NCBI RefSeq assembly: GCF_000428945.1
Contig: NZ_AUAX01000009.1
Location: forward strand, 124,001-188,000
DNA: 64,000 nucleotides
Reading direction: 5' to 3'
From: Hamadaea tsunoensis DSM 44101
GTDB lineage: Bacteria; Actinomycetota; Actinomycetes; Mycobacteriales; Micromonosporaceae
Shown: piece by piece, positions 1,412 through 13,292 of the stretch
Numbering within the stretch: position 1 is the stretch's first letter
How the letters are laid out: every line of letters begins with the position of its first letter
Made by a program: the position numbers and the translations under genes
The notes under the pieces: generated by a model
Told to the model about the DNA's origin: nothing
The model's input: the letters and a program-made list of their open reading frames with translations, nothing else
Database searches by the model: none

Positions 1412-2785
1412 TCAGACGCCCCGGAAACGGTTGATCGCCTCGCTGTGCCGGGCACGCTTCTCCGGATCGCGTACGCCGAGTCCTTCTTCGGGGGCGAGGC
1501 ACAGTACGCCCACTTTGCCCTGATGTGCGTTGCGGTGCACCTCGTACGTCGCCTGCCCGGTCTGCTCCATCGGGAACGTCTTGGACAGCGTCGGGTGCAC
1601 GAGGCCGAGATCGATCAGCCGGTTGGCCTGCCACGCCTCGTGGTAGTTGGCGAAATGGCTGCCGACGATCCGCTTCAGATGCATCCACAGATAGCGATTG
1701 TCGTACTGGTGCTCGAAGCCGCTCGTGGACGCGCACGTCACGATCGTGCCGCCGCGCTTGGCCACGAACACGCTGGCGCCGAACGTCTCCCGGCCCGGGT
1801 GCTCGAAGACGATGTCGGGGTCCTCGCCGCCGGTCAGCTCCCGGATGCGGGCCCCCAACCGCTTCCATTCGGCCGGATCCTGGGTGTTGTCGTCCTTCCA
1901 GAACCGGTACGCCTCGGCGGTCCGGTCGATCACCAGCTCGGCGCCCATCCGCTTGCAGAGATCGGCTTTCTCCGGACTGGACACCACGCAGACGGGGATG
2001 GCGCCGCCGTTCAGCGCCATCTGGGTCGCGTAGCTGCCGAGACCGCCGCTGGCGCCCCAGATCAGCACGACGTCGCCCTGCTTCATGTCCGCGCCGTGCC
2101 GCGACACCAGCTGCCGGTACGCCGTCGAGTTGACCAGGCCCGGCGCGGCGGCCTCCTCCCAGGTGAGGTGGGCGGGCTTGGGCATGAGCTGGTTGGTCTT
2201 GACGATCGCGAGCTGCGCGAGGCCGCCGAAGTTGGTCTCGAAGCCCCAGATGCGCTGCTGCGGGTCGAGCATCGTGTCGTCGTGGCCGGCCGCGTCCTCC
2301 AGTTCGACGCTGAGGCAGTGCGCGACGACCTGGTCGCCGGGCTGCCACTTGGTCACGCCCGCGCCGACCCGCAGCACCACGCCGGCGGCGTCCGAGCCGA
2401 CGACGTGGTACGGCAGGTCGTGGCGCCTGGTCAGGGTGGACAGCTTCCCGTACCGCTGCAGGAACCCGAAGGTGGACATCGGCTCGAAGATGGACGTCCA
2501 CACCGTGTTGTAGTTGATCGCGCTGGCCATCACGGCGATCAGCGCCTCGCCCGGGCCCAGCTCCGGCGTCGGGACCTCCTGCACGTGCAGGGACTTGCGC
2601 GGGTCCTTGTCCCTCGTGGCCTGACCGTCGAACATGGACACTTCGTCGGCGCGTACCGCGACGCCGAGATAGGACTCCGGGACGTCCAGACCGGCGACGC
2701 CGGCGAGTGCCCGCGCCGGGTCAGCAGCGTTCTCGGCCGACATGATCGCTTCGAGGATACGGTCCACCGGAGCCCCTCCGTCCAT
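1412..2785 (-). CDS. ccr: Crotonyl-CoA carboxylase/reductase
   Basis: 457 aa, the usual family length. The enzyme reductively carboxylates crotonyl-CoA to ethylmalonyl-CoA with NADPH; it feeds the ethylmalonyl-CoA pathway and ethylmalonyl-CoA extender units. Zinc-independent MDR fold: N-terminal GroES-like domain, then a Rossmann domain with WGASGGLGS at about 243-251. Residues matching the described CO2 pocket are visible: Asn in SAINYNTVW (~91), Phe-Glu in WGFETNFGG (~182-183) and His in the SHFANYHEA segment. The ATG at 2785 is chosen because AGGTG lies just upstream; the next Met is 15 codons in. A palindromic operator at 2791-2808 overlaps the ribosome-binding region. It is transcribed away from the divergent coiled-coil gene's promoter region and lies beside epimerase and thiolase genes. 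Confidence 0.95.
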   Translation of the reverse strand: MDGGAPVDRILEAIMSAENAADPARALAGVAGLDVPESYLGVAVRADEVSMFDGQATRDKDPRKSLHVQEVPTPELGPGEALIAVMASAINYNTVWTSIFEPMSTFGFLQRYGKLSTLTRRHDLPYHVVGSDAAGVVLRVGAGVTKWQPGDQVVAHCLSVELEDAAGHDDTMLDPQQRIWGFETNFGGLAQLAIVKTNQLMPKPAHLTWEEAAAPGLVNSTAYRQLVSRHGADMKQGDVVLIWGASGGLGSYATQMALNGGAIPVCVVSSPEKADLCKRMGAELVIDRTAEAYRFWKDDNTQDPAEWKRLGARIRELTGGEDPDIVFEHPGRETFGASVFVAKRGGTIVTCASTSGFEHQYDNRYLWMHLKRIVGSHFANYHEAWQANRLIDLGLVHPTLSKTFPMEQTGQATYEVHRNAHQGKVGVLCLAPEEGLGVRDPEKRARHSEAINRFRGV

Positions 2786-2790
2786 TCACA

Positions 2791-2808
2791 CCTGAACGAC
2801 CGTTGAGG
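2791..2808. promoter_or_regulatory. Palindromic operator upstream of ccr
   Basis: CCTGAACGACCGTTGAGG fits CCTnAACG-NN-CGTTnAGG, a perfect 7+7 bp dyad apart from the n positions. It sits 6 nt upstream of the ccr start codon and overlaps its ribosome-binding site. The same site occurs at 3426-3443 and 13275-13292 upstream of functionally related genes. Size and symmetry resemble TetR-family operators; the regulator is not identified in this window. Confidence 0.7.
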
Positions 2809-2935
2809 CCGTGGCGTCAGGTTACCGTCGGGTAGCTTCGGGGTGGAACGCTTCTGTGAAATAGTCCACCGGCTCTGCACCGGGTTGGCCCGGCCGCTGC
2901 TCGGAGCTGCTCGGAAAGCGCTCCCAGCGCGCTGT

Positions 2936-3412
2936 TCAGTGCTCCGCGGCGGTCCCGGTCGCCGGCTCGACCAACTCGACGAGTACGCCGCCGGCGTCCT
3001 TCGGGTGCACGAAGTTGATCCGCGAGTTCGCCGTGCCGCGCCGGGGCTCCGGATACAGCAGGCGTACGCCCCGGTCGCGCAGCGCGGCACACGCGGCGTC
3101 CACGTCCTCGACCGTGTACGCGACCTGCTGCACCCCGGGACCGTTGCGGTCCAGGAACTTCGCGATGGTCGACTCGGCCGACAGGGGGGCGAGCAACTGG
3201 ACGCAGCCGCCGGCGGCGGTCGGGCCGACGGCCATCATCGCCTCGCGTACGCCCTGCTCCTCGTTGGTCTCGACGTGCACGCAGGTCATCCCGAACACGC
3301 GCTCGTAGAAGGAGATCGCCTCGTCGAGATCGGCGACCGCGACCCCCACGTGATCGATGCGGATCAGGCCGATGCCCTGTGACATAGCCGACTGCTCGTG
3401 AACAACAGACAT
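2936..3412 (-). CDS. mce: Methylmalonyl-CoA epimerase (VOC family)
   Basis: 158 aa single-domain glyoxalase/VOC protein that interconverts (R)- and (S)-methylmalonyl-CoA (homologues also act on ethylmalonyl-CoA). Family signatures: IDHVGVAVADLDEAISFYERVFG near the N-terminus (shown in parts: IDHVGVAV, ISFYERVFG), NEEQGVREAM, GGCVQLLAP, RINFVHPKDAGG and LVELVEP. Metal-site His, Gln and Glu candidates are present, but the usual GEGxHHIAF segment reads GPGVQQVAYTV. An internal Met (codon 10, MSQGIGLIRIDH) could be the true start. It is divergent from the thiolase gene, with a shared operator at 3426-3443 in the 47-bp gap. Confidence 0.93.
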   Translation of the reverse strand: MSVVHEQSAMSQGIGLIRIDHVGVAVADLDEAISFYERVFGMTCVHVETNEEQGVREAMMAVGPTAAGGCVQLLAPLSAESTIAKFLDRNGPGVQQVAYTVEDVDAACAALRDRGVRLLYPEPRRGTANSRINFVHPKDAGGVLVELVEPATGTAAEH

Positions 3413-3425
3413 GTGGTTAGTCTTA

Positions 3426-3443
3426 CCTGAACGCTAGCTAAGG
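3426..3443. promoter_or_regulatory. Palindromic operator between mce and thiolase-meaB
   Basis: CCTGAACGCTAGCTAAGG matches the CCTnAACG-NN-CGTTnAGG consensus of the ccr and icmA sites with two right-arm mismatches. It lies in the 47-bp divergent gap between mce (start 3412) and the thiolase gene (start 3460), so one bound protein could control both directions. Confidence 0.65.
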
Positions 3444-3459
3444 TCGCAGGGAGGCCCTC

Positions 3460-4644
3460 ATGAGTTCGGTCATCGTCGCGGGTGCGCGTACGCCCATGGG
3501 ACGGTTGCTCGGCAACCTCAAGGACTTCTCGGCGGTCCAGCTCGGCGGCGTGGCCATCAAGGCGGCGCTGGAGCGGGCCGGTGTCGCGCCGGAGGCGGTC
3601 GACTACGTGATCATGGGCCAGGTGCTCCAGGCCGGCGCGGGGCAGATCCCGGCCCGGCAGGCGGCCGTGGCGGCGGGGATCCCGATGGACGTGCCCGCGC
3701 TGACGATCAACAAGGTGTGCCTGTCGGGGCTCGACGCGATCGCCCTGGCCGACCAGCTCATCCGGGCCGGCGAGGCGGAGATCGTGGTGGCCGGCGGCAT
3801 GGAGTCGATGACGAACGCCCCGCACCTGCTCGTGGGCCAGCGCCAGGGCTACAAGTACGGCGACGTGACCCTGAAGGACCACATGGCGCTGGACGGCCTG
3901 ACCGACGCGTGGCAGGGCATCCCGATGGGTGAGGCCACCGAGAACGACGGGAAGAAATGGGGCATCACCCGCGAGGAGCAGGACGCGTTCGCCGCCGCCT
4001 CGCACCAGCGGGCCGCCGCCGCCCAGAAGAACGGCGTCTTCGCCGAGGAGATCGCGCCGGTGAGCGTGCCTCAGCGCAAGGGTGACCCGATCGTGCTAGC
4101 CGAGGACGAGGGCGTACGCCCGGACACCACCGTCGAGACGCTTGCCCGGTTGAAGCCGGCGTTCACCAAGGACGGGACGATCACGGCCGGCTCGGCGTCG
4201 CCGATCTCCGACGGCGCGGCCGCGGTGCTCGTCATGAGCAAGGCGAAGGCGCAGGAGCTGGGCCTGGACTGGCTGGCCGAGATCGGCGCGCACGGCATGG
4301 TCGCCGGACCGGACAGCTCGCTGCAGGCGCAGCCGTCCAACGCGATCAAGAAGGCGCTCGCCAAGGAGGGCCTGACCGCCGCCGACCTCGACCTGATCGA
4401 GATCAACGAAGCGTTCGCGCAGGTCGGCATCGCCTCCACCCGCGAGCTCGGGGTCGACCCGGCGATCGTCAACGTCAACGGCGGCGCCATCGCGCTCGGC
4501 CACCCCATCGGCATGTCCGGCGCCCGGCTGGCCCTGACGCTCGCGCTGGAACTGCGCCGGCGCGGCGGCGGTGTCGGCGCGGCCGCCCTCTGCGGCGGCG
4601 GCGGGCAGGGTGACGCCCTGATCATCAAGGTCGCGAAGTCTTGA
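3460..4644 (+). CDS. Acetyl-CoA acetyltransferase (thiolase)
   Basis: 394 aa, standard thiolase length. It condenses two acetyl-CoA to acetoacetyl-CoA or the reverse. Nucleophilic Cys in INKVCLSG (~C87), His in [10 protein letters not shown] (~H348) and the second active-site Cys in LCGGGGQG (~C378) are all present. The ATG at 3460 follows AGGGAGG at ideal spacing. The stop codon overlaps the TTG start of meaB (TTGA), so the two are probably translationally coupled. With ccr and mce next door the likely job is the first step toward crotonyl-CoA in the ethylmalonyl-CoA pathway; a beta-oxidation role cannot be excluded. Confidence 0.93.
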
Positions 4645-5588
4645 GCGAGGTCGACCGGCTGGTCGCGGCTGCGCGCGATGGGGACGCGCGCAGCACGGCC
4701 CGCCTGATCAGCCTCGTCGAACGAGGGGCGCCGGAACTGCCCGAGATCGCGGCGGCCCTGGGCGGCGACGCCCAGCGCGCGCACATCCTCGGCCTCACCG
4801 GCTCGCCCGGCGTCGGCAAGTCCACCACGACCAACGAGCTGGTACGCGCGTACCGGCAGGACGGCAAGCGGGTCGGGGTGCTGGCGGTGGACCCGTCGAG
4901 CCCCTTCTCCGGCGGGGCGATCCTCGGCGACCGCGTACGCATGCAGGAGCACGCCACCGACGACGGCGTCTTCATCCGCAGCATGTCCAGCCGGGGCCAT
5001 CTGGGCGGGCTGTCCGCCGCGACCGCCGCCGCCGTACGCGTCCTCGCCGGGGTCGGCTGCGACGTGGTGCTCGTCGAGACGGTCGGGGTCGGGCAGGCCG
5101 AAGTGGAGATCGCGAGCCTCGCCGACACCACGCTGGTGCTGCTCGCGCCCGGTATGGGCGACGCGATCCAGGCTGTCAAGGCCGGCATCCTGGAGATCGC
5201 CGACATCTTCGTCGTCAACAAGGCCGACCGGGACGGCGTCGACGCGACCGTACGCGACATCAACGGCATGATCGCGCTCGGCGAGCGGGCCGCCGGCCAG
5301 TGGCGTCCGCGCGTCGTCAAGTCGGTGGCGGCCCGGGCCGAGGGCATCGACGACATCCGGGAAGCGATCGGCGACCACTGGGCGTACCTGGAGAAAAGTG
5401 GCGAACTGCGGCGCCGCCGGGAGGAGCGCGCGGCCGCCGAGATCGAGGCGCTCGTGCTCGGCCGGATGCGCGCCCGGATGGGTACGCTGCGCGGCGGGCA
5501 CGCGCTGTCCGAACTCGCCGTGAAGGTGGCGGCAGGGGCGGTCGACCCTTACGCCGCGGCCGAAGAGTTGCTGTCTGATCTCGTCTGA
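4641..5588 (+). CDS. meaB: MeaB/ArgK-type G3E GTPase, acyl-CoA mutase chaperone
   Basis: 315 aa. P-loop GTPase of the MeaB family, which protects and reloads B12-dependent acyl-CoA mutases. Walker [12 protein letters not shown] at about 51-61, conserved [17 protein letters not shown] segment ([15 protein letters not shown]), [10 protein letters not shown], and the guanine-recognition motif NKAD. The C-terminus carries the dimerisation tail typical of the family. The TTG at 4641 is inferred because its first four bases overlap the thiolase stop. No mutase subunit is adjacent; the isobutyryl-CoA mutase subunit at 11577-13253 is the only mutase in the window. Confidence 0.93.
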
Positions 5589-5697
5589 GAGGTGACCTTC
5601 CAGTCTGTCACCGGCTGAGGCTATGGTGTCTGGCGGCGCGCCGGGCACACTCCGGTTCGCCGCGCGAACCACGCGGGGACAGAACCGGAGGAAGACC

Positions 5698-8600
5698 TTG
5701 ACGGGTTGGACCGTGCTGCTGCGCGGGATGAGGTACCGGGCCGGGCGATCCCTGGTCGTGCTCATCCTGGCCGCCATAGCGGTGACCGCGGCGGTGCTGA
5801 CGCCCGCGTACGAGAAGGCGGCGCGGCAGTCCGTGCTGACCGACTCGCTGCGCGACGCGCCGGCGTACTCGACGTCACTGACCGTGAGCGCGGTCGGCCC
5901 GGTGAACAGCCCGGCCGGTGAACCGCTGCCCGACTCCACGCTCGTCGGCGACCAGGCGTTCGGCCACCGGCCGCTGATCAAGAGCCTGATCTCCCGTCCG
6001 ACCGCGGCGGTCGACACGCCGGCCAGCCTGAAGATCGGCAGCGACACGTGGGGCTTCCGGTACGTGTACCGGCAGGGCGCCTGCAAGCTGCTGAAGGTCA
6101 CCGGGGCGTGCCCGTCGGACACCGGTCAGATCATCGTGAGCGACCGGGCGGCCAAGGCGCACAACTGGGCGGTCGGCCAGAAGCTCTCCATCGAACTCGG
6201 CGCCGGCACCCCCCAGGTACGCGAGATCGTCGGCACGTACACCCCGCGCGACCCGGTCGGCTCGGAGTGGGGTGCGCACGTCTACTTCACCGAGGGCGTG
6301 ATCGCCGATCCGAACTCCGTGGAGAAGAAGGGCTACCCGACCGACGCCATGTTCGCCGGGGCCGAGGAGGACGTGAAGGCCGTCCCCTCCGCCACGCTCA
6401 ACATGGAGATCGTCTACCCGGTCGCGGTCGGCTCGGTGAAGCTCGACGACGTGGCCGCGCTGCGGGACCAGATCGCCTCGGCCTCCGTCGACATCGCCGG
6501 CGGCGACCTCGCCCTCAACACCCAGCTGCCCGGCATCCTCGACGAGGTCAGCCACGACCAGGCCGAGATCTCCCGCACGATCCCCGTCGTCGCGGTGCCG
6601 CTGCTGCTGCTCGTGGTCGGCGTACTGATGATGCTCGTCGCCACCCTGACCGAGGAGCGCAGTCCCGAGATCGCGCTGGCCAAGCTGCGCGGCTACCCGG
6701 CCGGTCGGGCGTCCCGGTTCGGCCTGGGCGAGGTGCTGCTGCTGATCACCCTCGCGACACCGATCGGCCTGGCCGCCGGCCTCGGCGCGGCCGAGCTGGC
6801 CGCGCGTACCGTGCTGGCGCCCGGCGTACACGTGGATGTGACCGACACGCTGCCCCTGGCCGCCGCGGGGGCCGCGCTGATCGCGGCCTTCGTCGCCGCC
6901 TGGGCCGCGTCGCGGCGGACGGTGCAGTCGGGCGTGCTGAGCCTGCTGCGCCGCGTGCCGCACCGGACCGGCTGGCGGGCGAGCGCGGGTGAGGGCATCG
7001 CGGTCGCGCTCGCGGCGGCGGCGCTGGTCGCGGCCTGGCAGGACCGGTCCTCACCGCTCGCGCTGCTCGCGGCGCCGCTGTTCGCGATCGTGGCGGGCAT
7101 CATCGTCGGCCGCCTGCTGCGGGTCTTCTCGGCCGTGCGGCTGCGGCTCGCCCGCCACCGCGGCAACGTGGCGACCATGCTGGCCGCCGCGCAGCTGGCC
7201 CGCCGCCCCGGGCGGCACCGGGTGGTCATGGTCGTGACGATCGCGCTGGCCCTGCTCGGCTTCGCCGCGACGGCCTGGGACGTCTCGGCCCAGGCCCGCT
7301 CCACGCAGGCCTCCCTCACGCTCGGCGCGGCCCGCGTCTACACCGTCAACGCCACCGACACCCAGGCCCTGATCGCCGCGGTACGCCAGGCGGCCCCGGA
7401 CGGCTCGGCCATGCCGGTCGTGCGGCGCAGCGAGCGGTACGCCGACGATCTCGTCTCGGTGGTGGGCGTACCGGCCGACCAGCTCGGCAAGGTGGCGACC
7501 TGGCCCGGGCACAGCTCGGCCGAGCTGACCGAGCTGGGCACGAAGCTGCGGCCGAAGGCGGGCGAGCAGGTCAAGGTCTCCGGCCGGCTGACCGCCCACG
7601 TGACGGTGCACCAGCTCGGCTCGGCCCTGCTGCAGCTGGAGGTGCTCATCGCCCGGCCGGGGCAGACGCCGCTCTACACGTCGCTCGGCCACCTGCAGAA
7701 GGGCACGCACGACTACACCGGCACCGTCCCGGAAGGACGGTTCGTCGGGCTGGCCCTGGTCCGCGACGCGGCCGACGGCGGGCGGGCCCAGGTCTCCATG
7801 GACGTCGAGTCGCTGCGCTCGGACGGTTCCGAGCCGGACGTCGGCGACCCCAGCCTCTGGCAGCCCGTACGCGACGACGGCATCACCGTGAACGCCGACG
7901 GGTCGCTCAAGCTGGACGTCGACGCGACCGGCAACGCCGACTTCGTGGTGTCCTACCTGGACACTCCGGCTGCTCTCCCGGTCGCCTTGGCGGGCGAGGC
8001 CCCCGACGACGACCGGCACGCGAAGACCTTCACCTTCCTGGCGTTCGCCGAGGACCCGCAGAAGTTCGCCGTCGTGCGTACCGCGGACGGGCTGCCCCGG
8101 GCCGGCGTCCACGGCATGCTGGTCGACCTCGACTACGCGCTGCGCCGGGCCGACGCGACCACGGGTCCCACCGACGGCACCCGGATGATCTCGGAGGTCT
8201 GGGCCAACTCGGCGGCCCCGGCCGACCTGCCGCAACGGCTGGCGGCGGCCGGTGTGACGGTCACGCGTACGCAGACGATCGAGGGGCTCGACGAGCAGCT
8301 CGGCCGGCGCGCTCCCGCTCTGGCCTGGCGGCTGTACCTGCTGGCCGGCGTCGTCGCGGCGGCCCTGGCCCTCGCCCTGGTGCTGCTGGTGGCCCGGCTC
8401 GGCGCGGCGGCCCGGCGGCACGAGTTCGCCGCCCTGCGGGTCACCGGCGTCAAGGCGAAGGTGTTGCGCCGCGGCGTACGCCGAGAGCACATGGCCCTCA
8501 TCGGCCTGCCGATCCTGGCCGGATTCGTCGTCGGCGTGGGCAGCGCCGTCCTGATGTTGCCCGGGTTCCCCCTGGTGACGGTCGGGGAGGTGAGCCCGGT

Positions 8601-8733
8601 GAAGTGGACGCCCACCATCGGCGCCCTCGCGGGCGCGGCCGTGGCCGGACTGCTCTGCCTGATCGTCGCCCTCGTCGTCGCGGTGCGCCTGGTCCGCCGG
8701 GCCGCCCCTGAGCTGTTGCGTGGTGATGTCTGA
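5698..8733 (+). CDS. FtsX-like ABC transporter permease
   Basis: About 1011 aa from the TTG at 5698, which follows a strong GGAGGAAG; an in-frame upstream start lacks such a site. One transmembrane segment near the N-terminus (GRSLVVLILAAIAV) is followed by a large extracellular domain. Then come three FtsX-core segments with the ALAKLRGYP motif, a second extracellular domain after FAATAWDVSAQAR, and a C-terminal FtsX core (ALRVTGVKAKVLRRGVRREH). This is the duplicated MacB/LolE-type layout without periplasmic lipid machinery, as in Gram-positive bacteria. It overlaps the next ATPase gene by 1 nt. Substrate unknown; mechanotransmission or export of lipids/peptides are options. Confidence 0.88.
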   Translation: MTGWTVLLRGMRYRAGRSLVVLILAAIAVTAAVLTPAYEKAARQSVLTDSLRDAPAYSTSLTVSAVGPVNSPAGEPLPDSTLVGDQAFGHRPLIKSLISRPTAAVDTPASLKIGSDTWGFRYVYRQGACKLLKVTGACPSDTGQIIVSDRAAKAHNWAVGQKLSIELGAGTPQVREIVGTYTPRDPVGSEWGAHVYFTEGVIADPNSVEKKGYPTDAMFAGAEEDVKAVPSATLNMEIVYPVAVGSVKLDDVAALRDQIASASVDIAGGDLALNTQLPGILDEVSHDQAEISRTIPVVAVPLLLLVVGVLMMLVATLTEERSPEIALAKLRGYPAGRASRFGLGEVLLLITLATPIGLAAGLGAAELAARTVLAPGVHVDVTDTLPLAAAGAALIAAFVAAWAASRRTVQSGVLSLLRRVPHRTGWRASAGEGIAVALAAAALVAAWQDRSSPLALLAAPLFAIVAGIIVGRLLRVFSAVRLRLARHRGNVATMLAAAQLARRPGRHRVVMVVTIALALLGFAATAWDVSAQARSTQASLTLGAARVYTVNATDTQALIAAVRQAAPDGSAMPVVRRSERYADDLVSVVGVPADQLGKVATWPGHSSAELTELGTKLRPKAGEQVKVSGRLTAHVTVHQLGSALLQLEVLIARPGQTPLYTSLGHLQKGTHDYTGTVPEGRFVGLALVRDAADGGRAQVSMDVESLRSDGSEPDVGDPSLWQPVRDDGITVNADGSLKLDVDATGNADFVVSYLDTPAALPVALAGEAPDDDRHAKTFTFLAFAEDPQKFAVVRTADGLPRAGVHGMLVDLDYALRRADATTGPTDGTRMISEVWANSAAPADLPQRLAAAGVTVTRTQTIEGLDEQLGRRAPALAWRLYLLAGVVAAALALALVLLVARLGAAARRHEFAALRVTGVKAKVLRRGVRREHMALIGLPILAGFVVGVGSAVLMLPGFPLVTVGEVSPVKWTPTIGALAGAAVAGLLCLIVALVVAVRLVRRAAPELLRGDV

Positions 8734-9836
8734 TGGCCGCCATCGGCGTGACCTGCCGTGGGCTGGTCTCGATCTACCGCCTGGAGGGATACGACGTCGT
8801 CGCGCTGGCCGGCGTCGACCTCGACATCGCGCCCGGCGAGTCGGTCGCGTTGCTCGGCCCGTCGGGCTCCGGCAAGTCCACCCTGCTGTCCGTGCTGGCC
8901 GGCCTGATGCGCCCGGCCGCCGGGCGGGCCCATGTGGGCGAGGTGGACCTGGCCAAGGCCGGCGAGCCCGACCTGGCCAAGATGCGTTCGGCGCAGGTCG
9001 GCGTGGCGCTGCAGGGCGCACAGCGCAACCTGCTGCCCTACCTCACCGCGGAGCAGAACGTACGCTTCGCCCAGCGGGGCGCGGTCCGTGGCGGTCCCAA
9101 GCCGCCGTCCGCCCGTGAGGTGCTGAACCTCGTCGGCATGGCGGGCCGGGGCCGGATGCGGCTCAAGCCGGGGCAGCTGACGCCCGGCGAGCGGCAGCGC
9201 CTCGCCCTCGCGGTGGCCCTGGCCAACCGGCCCGGCCTGCTGCTGGCCGACGAGCCGACGAGCCAGCTCGACACGAACGCCCGCGACGACGTCCTGGCCG
9301 CCCTGGATTCCGTGCACCGCAACGGAACCACCGTCATCGTCGTCACGCACGACCCGGACGTGGGCGCGCGGATGGGGCGTACCGTCACCATCCGCGACGG
9401 CCGCGTCGGCGGCGAGGGCCGCTCGGGCGAGGAGTTCGCGGTCGTCGGCCGGGACGGCTCGGTGCACCTGCCGGCGGACGTCCTGGAGATGCTGCCGCCC
9501 GGCACGTACCTGCGGGTGATCCCGCAGAAGGACGGCTCTGCGCTGCTGGTGCCGGCCGACTCCGCCGCCGCGGTGGCCGCCGCCGAGGTCTCGTCCGACT
9601 ACGCCCCCACCGGGTACGCGCCGGGCGAGTACGTCCCGGCCGAGCTGCCGCAGCGCTACCCGTCGGGCGATACGCACCGGCTGCCGGAGACGGCAACCTC
9701 TTACCCGGTCCAGAGCGTTCCCTCGCAATGGAACAGCGACACCCGGCAGTTCCCGGGCACCGGTTCGGGCCCGACCGTGGGTGATGGCGTGCACACCGGC
9801 CGCAGACCGGCCGACTATTACGGAGAGGAGCGCTGA
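8733..9836 (+). CDS. ABC transporter ATPase (LolD/MacB type) with C-terminal extension
   Basis: 367 aa. Walker A GPSGSGKST at about 43-51, Walker B LLLADEPTSQLD, and switch His in VVTHDPDVG are intact. The signature loop reads LTPGERQRLALA instead of LSGGQ, the same type of deviation seen in the ATPase at 19358. Residues ~230-367 form an extension rich in Tyr, Pro, Ser and Gly with no recognisable motif; its end is probably disordered. The start codon overlaps the permease stop and the stop overlaps the next ATPase start (TGATGG in both cases), so the three form one operon. Confidence 0.9.
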   Translation: MAAIGVTCRGLVSIYRLEGYDVVALAGVDLDIAPGESVALLGPSGSGKSTLLSVLAGLMRPAAGRAHVGEVDLAKAGEPDLAKMRSAQVGVALQGAQRNLLPYLTAEQNVRFAQRGAVRGGPKPPSAREVLNLVGMAGRGRMRLKPGQLTPGERQRLALAVALANRPGLLLADEPTSQLDTNARDDVLAALDSVHRNGTTVIVVTHDPDVGARMGRTVTIRDGRVGGEGRSGEEFAVVGRDGSVHLPADVLEMLPPGTYLRVIPQKDGSALLVPADSAAAVAAAEVSSDYAPTGYAPGEYVPAELPQRYPSGDTHRLPETATSYPVQSVPSQWNSDTRQFPGTGSGPTVGDGVHTGRRPADYYGEER

Positions 9837-10489
9837 TGGGCGCGACTGTGCAGGTCGACCGGATCACGGTGGCCTACGGCAAGGACCGCCCGGCGCTGCG
9901 CGACGTCACGGCGATGGCCGTGCCGGGACGGGTGCTGGCGGTGACCGGGCCCTCGGGAGCCGGCAAGACCACGCTGCTGTGGGCGATGGCCGGTCTGGTC
10001 AAGCCGCAGGGCGGTGCGGTCACCGTGAACGGGAAGGCCGTCGCCGACCGCGATCAGGCCGTGGCCGACGGTGTCGTGCTGGTACCGCAGGAGAACGGGC
10101 TCGCCGCCATCCTCACCGCCAGTGAGAACGTCCAGGTCGCCCTGATCGCCAACGGCACGGCCCCGGCCGAGGCCCGCCGGCGTACCGCCGAGGCACTGGA
10201 GCAGGTCGGCCTGGCCGGTCAGGCGGATCAGCTGGTCGAGGAGCTGTCCGGCGGTCAGCAGCAGCGTACGGCCATCGCGCGCGGGCTCGCGCTGCGCGGC
10301 GACGTGCTGCTGGCCGACGAGGTCACCAGCGAGCTCGACGCGGCCAACCGGCAGAAGGTGATCGACCTGCTGCAGGCCGAGGCCCGCCGGGGCGCCGCCG
10401 TGGTGTTCGCCACCCACGACCCGCAGGCGGCCGCCGCGTGCGACGGTGAGATCCACCTCGTCGACGGTGTCGCGACCGTCGTCCGCTGA
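9836..10489 (+). CDS. ABC transporter ATPase, short canonical form
   Basis: 217 aa. Walker A GPSGAGKTT, canonical signature LSGGQQQRTAIARGLA, Walker B VLLADEVTSELD (Val in place of the usual Pro in DEPT) and switch His in FATHDP. It is the third gene of the operon starting at 5698. An operon with one permease polypeptide and two different ATPases suggests a heterodimeric ATPase pair, one with a canonical and one with a degenerate signature loop; this is inference from gene order. Confidence 0.9.
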   Translation: MGATVQVDRITVAYGKDRPALRDVTAMAVPGRVLAVTGPSGAGKTTLLWAMAGLVKPQGGAVTVNGKAVADRDQAVADGVVLVPQENGLAAILTASENVQVALIANGTAPAEARRRTAEALEQVGLAGQADQLVEELSGGQQQRTAIARGLALRGDVLLADEVTSELDAANRQKVIDLLQAEARRGAAVVFATHDPQAAAACDGEIHLVDGVATVVR

Positions 10490-10515
10490 TCATTCCCAGG
10501 CCACAGGGTTCGAAC

Positions 10516-10552
10516 GGACCGCGGGACGCGCGTCGGCGCCGTCCCGCGGACC
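10516..10552 (+). terminator. GC-rich hairpin after the ABC operon
   Basis: GGACCGCGGGAC and GTCCCGCGGACC form a 12-bp stem with one mismatch around a 13-nt loop, 27 nt after the operon stop codon. There is no T-tract, which is common for actinobacterial terminators. Confidence 0.55.
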
Positions 10553-10706
10553 GGGGAGTTCGGTCGGCTAGGTGATCGTCGGGCGGGCGTACGGCGGTTA
10601 TGCTGCCCGCGTCACCGCCGGGTACGACTCGCCTGACCTGGCCTGCGATCTGGGCCGGCAGACGCTCACCAACCGGCGGGCGAACCACGACCAGGGGAGC
10701 ACCATC

Positions 10707-11429
10707 ATGACCGACATCAGCCAGACCGCCCCGGTGGCAGTGCCCGCGCAGGCCGCTGAGGCCGCGCCCGCCCAGCCGGCGGCGGACGACAACTCCACGA
10801 TGGACAACATCCGCGCCGGCGCGACCGACCTCGCCGCGCAGGGCCGCGAGGCCTTCAGCCAGGCGGCCGAGCAGGGTCGCGAAGCCCTCGGCCAGGCGGC
10901 CGAGCAGGGCAAGGAAGCCCTCAGCCAGGCCGCCGACCAGGTGAGCGACGCCGCCGACCGGGCCGTCGACGCCACCAAGCAGTTCGCGACCAACGCCGCC
11001 CGCCGGCTGCGCAACAACGCCGAGCTGCCGGCCGACCGGGGCCGTACGACCATCCGGCACGAGGTCGTCGAGAAGATCGCCGGCATCGCCGCCCGCGAGG
11101 TTCCGGGCGTGTACGACCTGGGTGGCGACGTCGCCCGGGTGTTCAGCGCTGTCAAGGAGCGCATCGGTCTCGGCGAGGCCGACGCGGACCAGGGCGTGAA
11201 GGTGATCCTCGAAGGCGCGACCGCGTCCGTGGAGGTCGTCATCGTCATCGAGTTCGGCTACGTCGTGCACTCGGTGACCGACACCGTCCGGGTCAAGGTG
11301 ATCAACTCCGTCGAGAACCTGCTCGGCCTGGAGGTCACCGGCGTGGACGTCATCGTCGACGACGTGCACATCGAGGACGACGGCCCGGTCGGCAACGACC
11401 AGGCCCGCGCCGCCGACTACGTCGCCTGA
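10707..11429 (+). CDS. Asp23/Gls24 family envelope stress protein
   Basis: 240 aa from the ATG at 10707, preceded by AGGGGAGC; longer upstream readings lack a ribosome site. Residues ~40-85 contain repeated QGREA/QAAEQG units (QAAEQGREALG, QAAEQGKEALS, QAADQVSDAAD), an amphipathic, LEA-like 11-residue pattern. Residues ~105-220 match the Asp23/Gls24 domain (DUF322): TIRHEVVEKIAGIAAREVPG (in parts), GVKVILEG, VEVVIVIEFGY, INSVENLLGLEVTGVDVIVDD. Family members sit at the membrane and respond to cell-envelope stress. It lies between two ABC-FtsX modules, which fits an envelope role, but it is separated from the first by a hairpin terminator. Confidence 0.88.
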   Translation: MTDISQTAPVAVPAQAAEAAPAQPAADDNSTMDNIRAGATDLAAQGREAFSQAAEQGREALGQAAEQGKEALSQAADQVSDAADRAVDATKQFATNAARRLRNNAELPADRGRTTIRHEVVEKIAGIAAREVPGVYDLGGDVARVFSAVKERIGLGEADADQGVKVILEGATASVEVVIVIEFGYVVHSVTDTVRVKVINSVENLLGLEVTGVDVIVDDVHIEDDGPVGNDQARAADYVA

Positions 11430-11464
11430 CCCCGATCGTCACCCCGCCGACCGCACCAACGCCT

Positions 11465-11541
11465 AGATCCCGTTTGGATCAGGGTTTCGCACGTAATCAT
11501 GGGCCATGATTCGGGTGATTTCCCTGATCCAAACGGGATCT
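11465..11541. repeat. Family A palindromic repeat, copy 1
   Basis: A 20-bp perfect inverted repeat (AGATCCCGTTTGGATCAGGG and its complement) encloses an inner 17-nt palindrome AATCATGGGCCATGATT. Copies occur at 56183-56263 and 62988-63064. All three lie between convergent genes. It may act as a bidirectional terminator here for the Asp23 gene and icmA. Confidence 0.85.
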
Positions 11542-11576
11542 TGGCATTGCGGGTCGGGGCGGGTGGAGCGGATCGG

Positions 11577-13253
11577 TCAGAAGCGGGCGGGCTCGCGGTA
11601 GACGCCCCACTCGTCGCGCAGCGCGTCGCAGATCTCGCCCAGCGACGCCTCCGCCCGGCAGGCGTCCAGCAGCAGCGGCACCAGGTTCCCGGTACCCCGC
11701 GCGGCCTCCTTCAGCTTCGCCAGCGTGGCGTCCACAGCGGACTGGTCACGCGCGGCCCGCCGCTCCTTGAGCGCCGCGACCTGCTCGGTCTCCACCTCGT
11801 GCGAGACCCGCATGATCTCCAGCGGCTTGGCCAGGGTGTCGGTGTTCCGCGTGACGCCCACGATGTGCTTGACGTCGCTCTCCAGGCCCCGCTGGTACGC
11901 GTACGCGGAGTCGGCGATGTTGGCCGTGAACCAGCCGTTCTCGATGCCGCGCAGGATTCCCTGGGTGAAGGAGCCGTCCGAGCCCAGGGCGGTGATCCGG
12001 GCGAAGATCTCCTCCGCCTCGGCCTCGATCCTGTCGGTCAGCGCCTCGACGTACCAGGAGCCGCCGAGCGGGTCGGCCACGTTCGTGACACCCGTCTCGT
12101 GCATGATCACCTGCTGCGTACGCAGGGCGATCTCGGCCGACTCGTCGGAGGGCAGGGCCAGCGTCTCGTCGAGGGCGTTGGTGTGCAGCGAGTTCGTGCC
12201 ACCGAGGACCGCCGACAGGGCTTCCAGCGCTGTGCGTACGACATTGTTGACGGGCTGCTGGGCGGTGAGCGAGACACCCGCGGTCTGCGTGTGGAAACGC
12301 AGCCATTGGGCCTTCTCACTGGTGGCGCCGTAGACGTCGCGCAGGCGGCGGGCCCAGATCCGGCGCGCGGCGCGGAACTTGGCGATCTCCTCGAAGAAGT
12401 CGACGTGGGCGTCGAAGAAGAAGCTGAGCCCCGGGGCGAACTGGTTGACGTCGAGGCCGCGCGACAGCCCGAGCTCGACGTACCCGAACCCGTCCGCCAG
12501 CGTGTACGCGAGTTCCTGCGCGGCCGTCGAACCGGCCTCCCGGATGTGGTAGCCGGAGACGGACAGCGGCTTGTAGCGCGGGATGCGTTCGGCGCAGTAC
12601 TCCATGAGGTCGCCGATGAGGCGCAGGTGCGGCTCGGGGGCGAAGAGCCACTCCTTCTGCGCGATGTACTCCTTGAAGATGTCGGTCTGCAGGGTGCCGT
12701 CCAGGACGCTGGTGTCGGCGAGGCCCTGGCGTTCGGCGGCGACGAGGTACATGCAGAAGAGCGGGACCGCGGGACCGCTGATCGTCATCGAGGTGGTGAC
12801 GGCGGCGAGGTCGATGCCGTCGAAGAGCACCTCCATGTCGGCGACGGAGTCGATGGCGACGCCGCAGTGGCCGACCTCGCCCAGCGAACGGGGGTCGTCG
12901 GAGTCGCGGCCCATGAGGGTGGGCATGTCGAAGGCGACCGACAGGCCGCCGCCGCCCGCGTTGAGGATCTGGTGGTAGCGCTCGTTGGTCTGGTGGGCGT
13001 TGCCGAAGCCGGCGAACTGGCGGATGGTCCAGGTACGCCCGCGGTACCCGGTGGGGTAGAGGCCGCGGGTGAAGGGGAACTCGCCCGGCCAACCGATCCG
13101 GTCGAAACCAGGCACTGTGCCGCCCTCCGGCGGCCCGTACACCGGCTCGACGACGTCACCCGAGAGCGTGGTGAAGTCGGCGTCGCGCTTGCGCGCGGCG
13201 TCATAGCGAGCCTGCCAGCGGGCACGGCCGGCGGCGATCTCGTCAGCGTCCAT
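11577..13253 (-). CDS. icmA: Isobutyryl-CoA mutase-like large subunit (B12-dependent acyl-CoA mutase)
   Basis: 558 aa, the catalytic TIM-barrel half only; there is no C-terminal cobalamin-binding domain (no DxHxxG segment). Such large subunits work with a separate ~15 kDa B12-binding subunit. Substrate-determining positions favour isobutyryl-CoA/n-butyryl-CoA: Phe80 in TIRQFAGFG where methylmalonyl-CoA mutase has Tyr89, and Gln199 in KEYIAQKEW where it has Arg207. The [14 protein letters not shown] and [14 protein letters not shown] stretches are typical. No small subunit gene is adjacent. An operator shared with ccr and mce/thiolase sits 22 bp upstream of the ATG, tying it to acyl-CoA metabolism rather than to the flanking transporters. 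Confidence 0.88.
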
Positions 13254-13274
13254 GAGCGGATGGTAGTCCAGAGT

Positions 13275-13292
13275 CCTGAACGATCGCTAAGG
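13275..13292. promoter_or_regulatory. Palindromic operator upstream of icmA
   Basis: CCTGAACGATCGCTAAGG is the third copy of the CCTnAACG-NN-CGTTnAGG site, 22 bp upstream of the icmA start codon. It is nearly identical to the mce/thiolase site (two differences in 18 positions). Confidence 0.68.

Follow-up and report, generated by a model that had tools for sequence, protein, structure and literature searches.

The window, the 64-kb stretch of DNA that was analysed here (G000:C9:124001-188000), contains several genes of acyl-CoA metabolism. On the reverse strand, ccr (1412..2767; longest ORF to 2785) encodes a crotonyl-CoA carboxylase/reductase and mce (2936..3412) a methylmalonyl-CoA epimerase, each above the cut-off of an NCBIfam equivalog model (TIGR01751 and TIGR03081, respectively). 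Divergent from mce, on the forward strand, are a gene for an acetyl-CoA acetyltransferase-type thiolase (3460..4644; above the cut-off of the subfamily model TIGR01930) and meaB (4641..5588; Pfam MeaB), which overlaps the end of the thiolase gene and for which the TTG of the longest ORF was taken as the start. An icmA-like gene for the large subunit of an acyl-CoA mutase lies on the reverse strand (11577..13253). These matches agree with the functions proposed in a first-pass annotation of this DNA for ccr, mce, the thiolase gene and meaB; the icmA product is above cut-off only for the general NCBIfam model of the acyl-CoA mutase N-terminal domain (TIGR00641), so that the isobutyryl specificity also proposed is presumptive.

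The likely start codon of ccr is the GTG at 2767, because relatives mostly align from about residues 2-8 and a GGAGGG sequence is situated upstream. A TANNNT sequence resembling a -10 box (TACCAT, 13260..13265, reverse strand) lies 6 nt ahead of the ATG of icmA, an arrangement like that of leaderless promoters, and is a putative promoter element. Separately, an approximately 80-bp, near-identical palindromic element, REP- or MITE-like, was observed after icmA (window about 11468-11545) and after a biotin-carboxylase gene elsewhere in the genome (L022 about 9080-9170); its core occurs once in the window.

Three palindromic 18-mers, which the first-pass annotation had regarded as one shared operator, are situated upstream of ccr (CCTGAACGACCGTTGAGG, 2791..2808), between the divergent mce and thiolase-meaB genes, to which the site is common (CCTGAACGCTAGCTAAGG, 3426..3443), and upstream of icmA (CCTGAACGATCGCTAAGG, 13275..13292); the coordinates given there were exact. 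They differ from the 18-mer consensus, CCTNAACGNNCGTTNAGG, by 0, 2 and 1 mismatches, respectively. The distances to the start codons of the longest ORFs are 5 bp (ccr; 23 bp if translation starts at GTG 2767), 13 bp (mce), 16 bp (thiolase) and 21 bp (icmA), all within the 25 bp that had been claimed. When up to two mismatches to the consensus were allowed, the three sites compare with a mean of 0.14 in shuffled sequences, and none of 300 shuffles reached three; chance origin of the three sites in the window is ruled out at this level. With up to three mismatches the number found, again three, is not above chance (shuffle means of 2.13 and 2.20). At that threshold the window contains no further match, and hence none by the FtsX/ABC-transporter genes (5623-10489, Pfam), both as originally stated.

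Occurrence of the motif in the genome and in related species

The genome (G000; 9.48 Mb in 68 contigs) was scanned using the motif written backwards as the control. The scan suggested in the first-pass annotation, with the 18-mer and up to two mismatches, was barely informative: the counts were 89/82, slightly above those of the control (73/64), and most such matches must therefore be attributed to chance. The 16-bp core, CTNAACGNNCGTTNAG, performed far better, with 17 unique sites at no more than one mismatch vs 0 for the control. Thirteen of the 17 are found at the starts of acyl-CoA genes, the regulatory gene tetR or a NUDIX gene. Twelve of these precede a start codon by no more than about 60 bp, the genes being tetR, ccr, etfB, an acyl-CoA dehydrogenase gene, the NUDIX gene, two biotin-carboxylase genes, an accD-type gene, hmgL, hbd, icmA and echA, and the thirteenth lies across the beginning of a methylmalonyl-CoA mutase gene. 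The names hbd, accD and biotin carboxylase are those of the best NCBIfam models, at scores below the cut-offs, with additional support from Pfam for the biotin carboxylases; the likely accA start is a GTG six bases beyond 10528, a position that is itself out of frame. The remaining four core sites adjoin no clear acyl-CoA gene start, and for two of these four no clear target gene was found. The other two, L163:2429-2444 and L023:7918-7933, occupy the leuB/class IV aminotransferase intergene and a position well upstream of an aspartate kinase gene, respectively, a hint that amino-acid genes belong to the regulon. It is apparent that the shared motif is a real operator-like element, present above chance.

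The sites of mce/thiolase and of a meaA-like mutase gene have two mismatches each, the level at which the genome scan was close to its control, and their inclusion therefore rests on conservation. Conservation was scored at a threshold of at least 15 bits, with the genome under study left out and 300 permuted matrices as the control. Within the family, presumably the Micromonosporaceae, the site was retained in the orthologous promoters of icmA (21 of 21), mce (15 of 21), hbd (15 of 22) and meaA (8 of 10, although two of these eight matches, in G020 and G022, are GTTAACGATCGGTAAC and are nearer to another palindrome), and more weakly in those of tetR (8 of 21) and ccr (3 of 13). The means for the permuted matrices did not exceed 0.15; the observed count was attained by a single permuted matrix in the case of icmA and likewise in that of tetR. 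Outside the family the site was present in 0 of 8 icmA loci and 1 of 8 mce loci. Second copies or distant matches of ccr (L099-L101) and a partial meaA locus of G005 (L296) were omitted from these counts; the family genomes contributing no locus were G007, G014 and G017 for icmA, G014, G015 and G016 for mce, and G001 (partial locus), G005 and G008 (no orthologue) for tetR. In G005 and G008, both of which are fragmented assemblies, the icmA site is kept and a TetR orthologue was not found.

Another palindrome, GTTAC(C/T)GATCGGTAAC-like, was observed in 7 of 11 ccr promoters outside the family (L084, L086, L087, L088, L092, L093 and L094, from other families of the order). The palindrome GTTAACGATCGGTAAC before meaA in G020 and G022 resembles it. 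The GTTAC(C/T)GATCGGTAAC-like sequence perhaps represents the site of a second regulator of ethylmalonyl-CoA genes.

From the sites taken together, the predicted regulon would comprise leucine breakdown, the route from acetyl-CoA to ethylmalonyl-CoA (thiolase, hbd, ccr, meaA-like and mce) and acyl-CoA mutases. The supply of methylmalonyl- and ethylmalonyl-CoA to polyketide synthesis is governed by crotonyl-CoA carboxylation, epimerisation and acyl-CoA mutation. Were a single repressor to hold all of these steps, the loss of just one gene could increase several precursors together. For accR, which encodes a regulator discussed below, deletion is described as leading to a higher titre of avermectin B1a (PMC11611008).

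A TetR-type candidate regulator

The first-pass annotation had postulated an unlinked TetR-type repressor controlling the supply of short-chain/branched acyl-CoA and polyketide precursors, to be sought as a TetR gene preceded by the same site. Such a gene exists: tetR, at G000:C6:93664-94290 (equivalent to L022:10665-11291, minus strand), lies on a different contig from the window, encodes a product of 208 aa with a TetR-family DNA-binding domain (Pfam TetR_N, 2.5e-17, above cut-off), and has a perfect core match in its own promoter, 48 bp upstream, as expected of an autoregulated gene. It is situated directly before a biotin-carboxylase gene, which is itself preceded by another core site, with hmgL and an accD-type gene within about 8 kb in a rearranged order; proximity to acyl-CoA carboxylase genes is typical of AccR/BkaR-type regulators. 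When the TetR from the accD-accA-hmgL-acyl-CoA dehydrogenase locus of S. albidoflavus was used as the query, its only match in the genome at 1e-12 or below was this protein (51%, 9.1e-47), and a 49-row tree agrees with orthology of the two. The regulator is assigned to the AccR type because it is the sole strong match of the S. albidoflavus TetR, whose gene set matches the AccR locus described in a review. The closest solved structure is 4g12 (E value 4.9e-41), named Fad35R (PMC4418694). The score against the NCBIfam model for SACE_7040 family regulators was 222.6 bits, below the cut-off of 250.

The initial view proved correct in most respects; the regulator, however, belongs to the known AccR/BkaR kind, a point missed at that stage. 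On the basis of these sequence comparisons, the motif is very probably the operator of the AccR/BkaR-type TetR repressor at G000:C6:93664-94290; binding by this protein, repression and the kind of ligand are presumed by extension. Alternatively, the sites could be used by another TetR or palindrome-binding protein, of which the AccR-type TetR would be merely one target. With the query, 57 TetR-like matches were indeed obtained in the genome at E values of 0.001 or below, and one core site is located beside another TetR gene (C18:188077). This explanation is nevertheless improbable, given that the promoter of the AccR-type TetR gene itself contains a perfect site, that the published operator of this regulator's group is in the same register, and that orthologues in other families carry GTTAA-N6-TTAAC-like sites in their promoters.

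Several characterized systems may be compared with the AccR/BkaR-type repressor proposed here. AccR of Streptomyces avermitilis is a TetR encoded beside accD-accA-hmgL-acyl-CoA dehydrogenase genes, as in the S. albidoflavus locus, and the targets listed for it in the review are accD1A1-hmgL-fadE4, echA8, echA9 and fadE2 (PMC10933834). The predicted regulon is wider than that list, adding ccr, hbd, thiolase-meaB, mce, the meaA-like gene and icmA. BkaR of mycobacteria is described as an autoregulated TetR repressor of branched-chain keto-acid genes, encoded beside accD1/accA1, with a small regulon of 10 genes in M. smegmatis; its 16-bp core, GTTA(N)T(N4)A(N)TAAC, is Arg-type with G..C ends, unlike that of the host (PMC3920632). 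Fad35R, the binding of which is reportedly reduced by palmitoyl-CoA, has Arg in the recognition helix where the host regulator has His (IYRHF); from the position of both by fadD35, it is presumably the same protein as BkaR. PccD of Saccharopolyspora erythraea, a TetR repressor of acyl-CoA carboxylase genes, is termed similar to AccR (PMC8176718), but its binding sequence, as quoted in the review, is unlike the host motif (PMC10933834). None of the papers listed by searches that combined AccR with Micromonospora, or TetR with ccr or isobutyryl-CoA mutase, describes such a regulon in its title or in the opening of its abstract. As far as could be seen, the variant form of the operator is new, as is the extension of the predicted regulon to genes of ethylmalonyl- and isobutyryl-CoA metabolism.

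Operator variant and recognition helix

The host motif, CTTAA-CGNNCG-TTAAG, and the AccR box, GTTAA-N6-TTAAC, are both 16-bp palindromes, and an apparent difference in half-site orientation disappeared once both were centred. Comparison of a matrix of 14 sites with the published boxes places TTAA at positions 4-7 of each half in both; the outermost pair is G..C in the AccR box (PMC10933834) and C..G here, C being present in 24 of 28 half-sites in the genome under study. The operator is consequently a variant of the AccR box and not the AccR box itself.

The outer pair was compared further by a scan in which it was left unscored. G..C was found in 127 of 132 sites in tetR promoters of Arg-type regulators, drawn from 80 named loci (the best among the matches listed for an Arg-type query, and so not an unbiased survey) and seven loci in further families of the order, whereas C..G was found in 45 of 57 sites in six gene promoters of the host family, the two sets thus differing in the genes they represent. 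For tetR promoters only, 5 of 10 in the host family gave C..G and none of the 10 gave G..C. The same scan yielded no sites in the sister-family genome. Strict whole-genome counts pointed the same way: those for 25 family genomes were 66 for C..G (control 18) and 34 for G..C (control 19), and for ten Arg-type genomes 6 (control 9) and 13 (control 6), respectively.

Residue 66 of TetR is His in all 23 rows of one class and Arg in all 87 of the other, and is the only position in the recognition helix without overlap between them; positions 37, 78, 81, 128 and 179 also separate the classes fully. The His-type rows form one clade (100/100 in the 49-row tree), so the correlation between His and the outer pair rests on one event. 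Thr/Ser in the recognition helix was set aside as the cause of the operator change, since L053 has Thr together with Arg and G..C sites. The chances are evenly balanced that an AccR-type repressor, in the ancestor shared by the host family and a single sister family, replaced Arg by His as the outer pair changed from G..C to C..G, that its regulon grew from leucine degradation to a general switch for C4/C5 acyl-CoA and polyketide extender supply, and that several operators became fused to the -10 regions of leaderless promoters. A recognition-helix residue and an operator base pair changing together would illustrate how a regulator can change in concert with all of its sites. Residue 128, outside the DNA-binding domain, was observed to be Arg in 87 of 87 Arg-type rows and His in 21 of 23 His-type rows, and may bear on ligand choice.

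Promoter layout and proposed mechanism

Of 16 genes, 10 have a TANNNT box 6-7 nt ahead of the start codon. In seven promoters (those of hbd, the meaA-like gene, hmgL, the acyl-CoA dehydrogenase gene, the second biotin-carboxylase gene, echA and the NUDIX gene), the last 3-4 bases of the operator are the first 3-4 bases of the box. The operators of icmA and tetR are located upstream of the -10-like box.

A mechanism can be proposed in which a dimer of the AccR/BkaR-type TetR would bind the 16-bp palindrome CTNAACG-NN-CGTTNAG and block RNA polymerase until released by an acyl-CoA. Because the operator end overlaps the TANNNT box in seven promoters, the repressor would there sit on the core promoter, as for leaderless genes. 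The ligands reported for AccR are methylcrotonyl-, propionyl- and acetyl-CoA (PMC8546615), and by analogy a short or branched acyl-CoA probably serves as the inducer here.

The arrangement at icmA and tetR might instead suggest that TetR binds but activates at some sites, as TetR proteins positioned upstream of the -35 are stated to be able to do (PMC7324645). That would be difficult to reconcile with the overlap in seven promoters, and both AccR (PMC10933834, PMC11611008) and BkaR (PMC3920632) are described as repressors, so activation is considered very unlikely. It is scarcely credible that the motif serves in part as a core-promoter element of leaderless genes instead of as an operator, for, despite the seven overlaps with TANNNT and the near-constant distance to the start codon, such an element needs neither dyad symmetry nor restriction to acyl-CoA genes, and the palindromes of icmA, tetR, etfB and ccr are away from the TANNNT position.

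In the case of the NUDIX hydrolase gene (L064:1525-2148; site C5:77123), where the operator is fused to the -10-like box, the product is perhaps an acyl-CoA or CoA pyrophosphatase.
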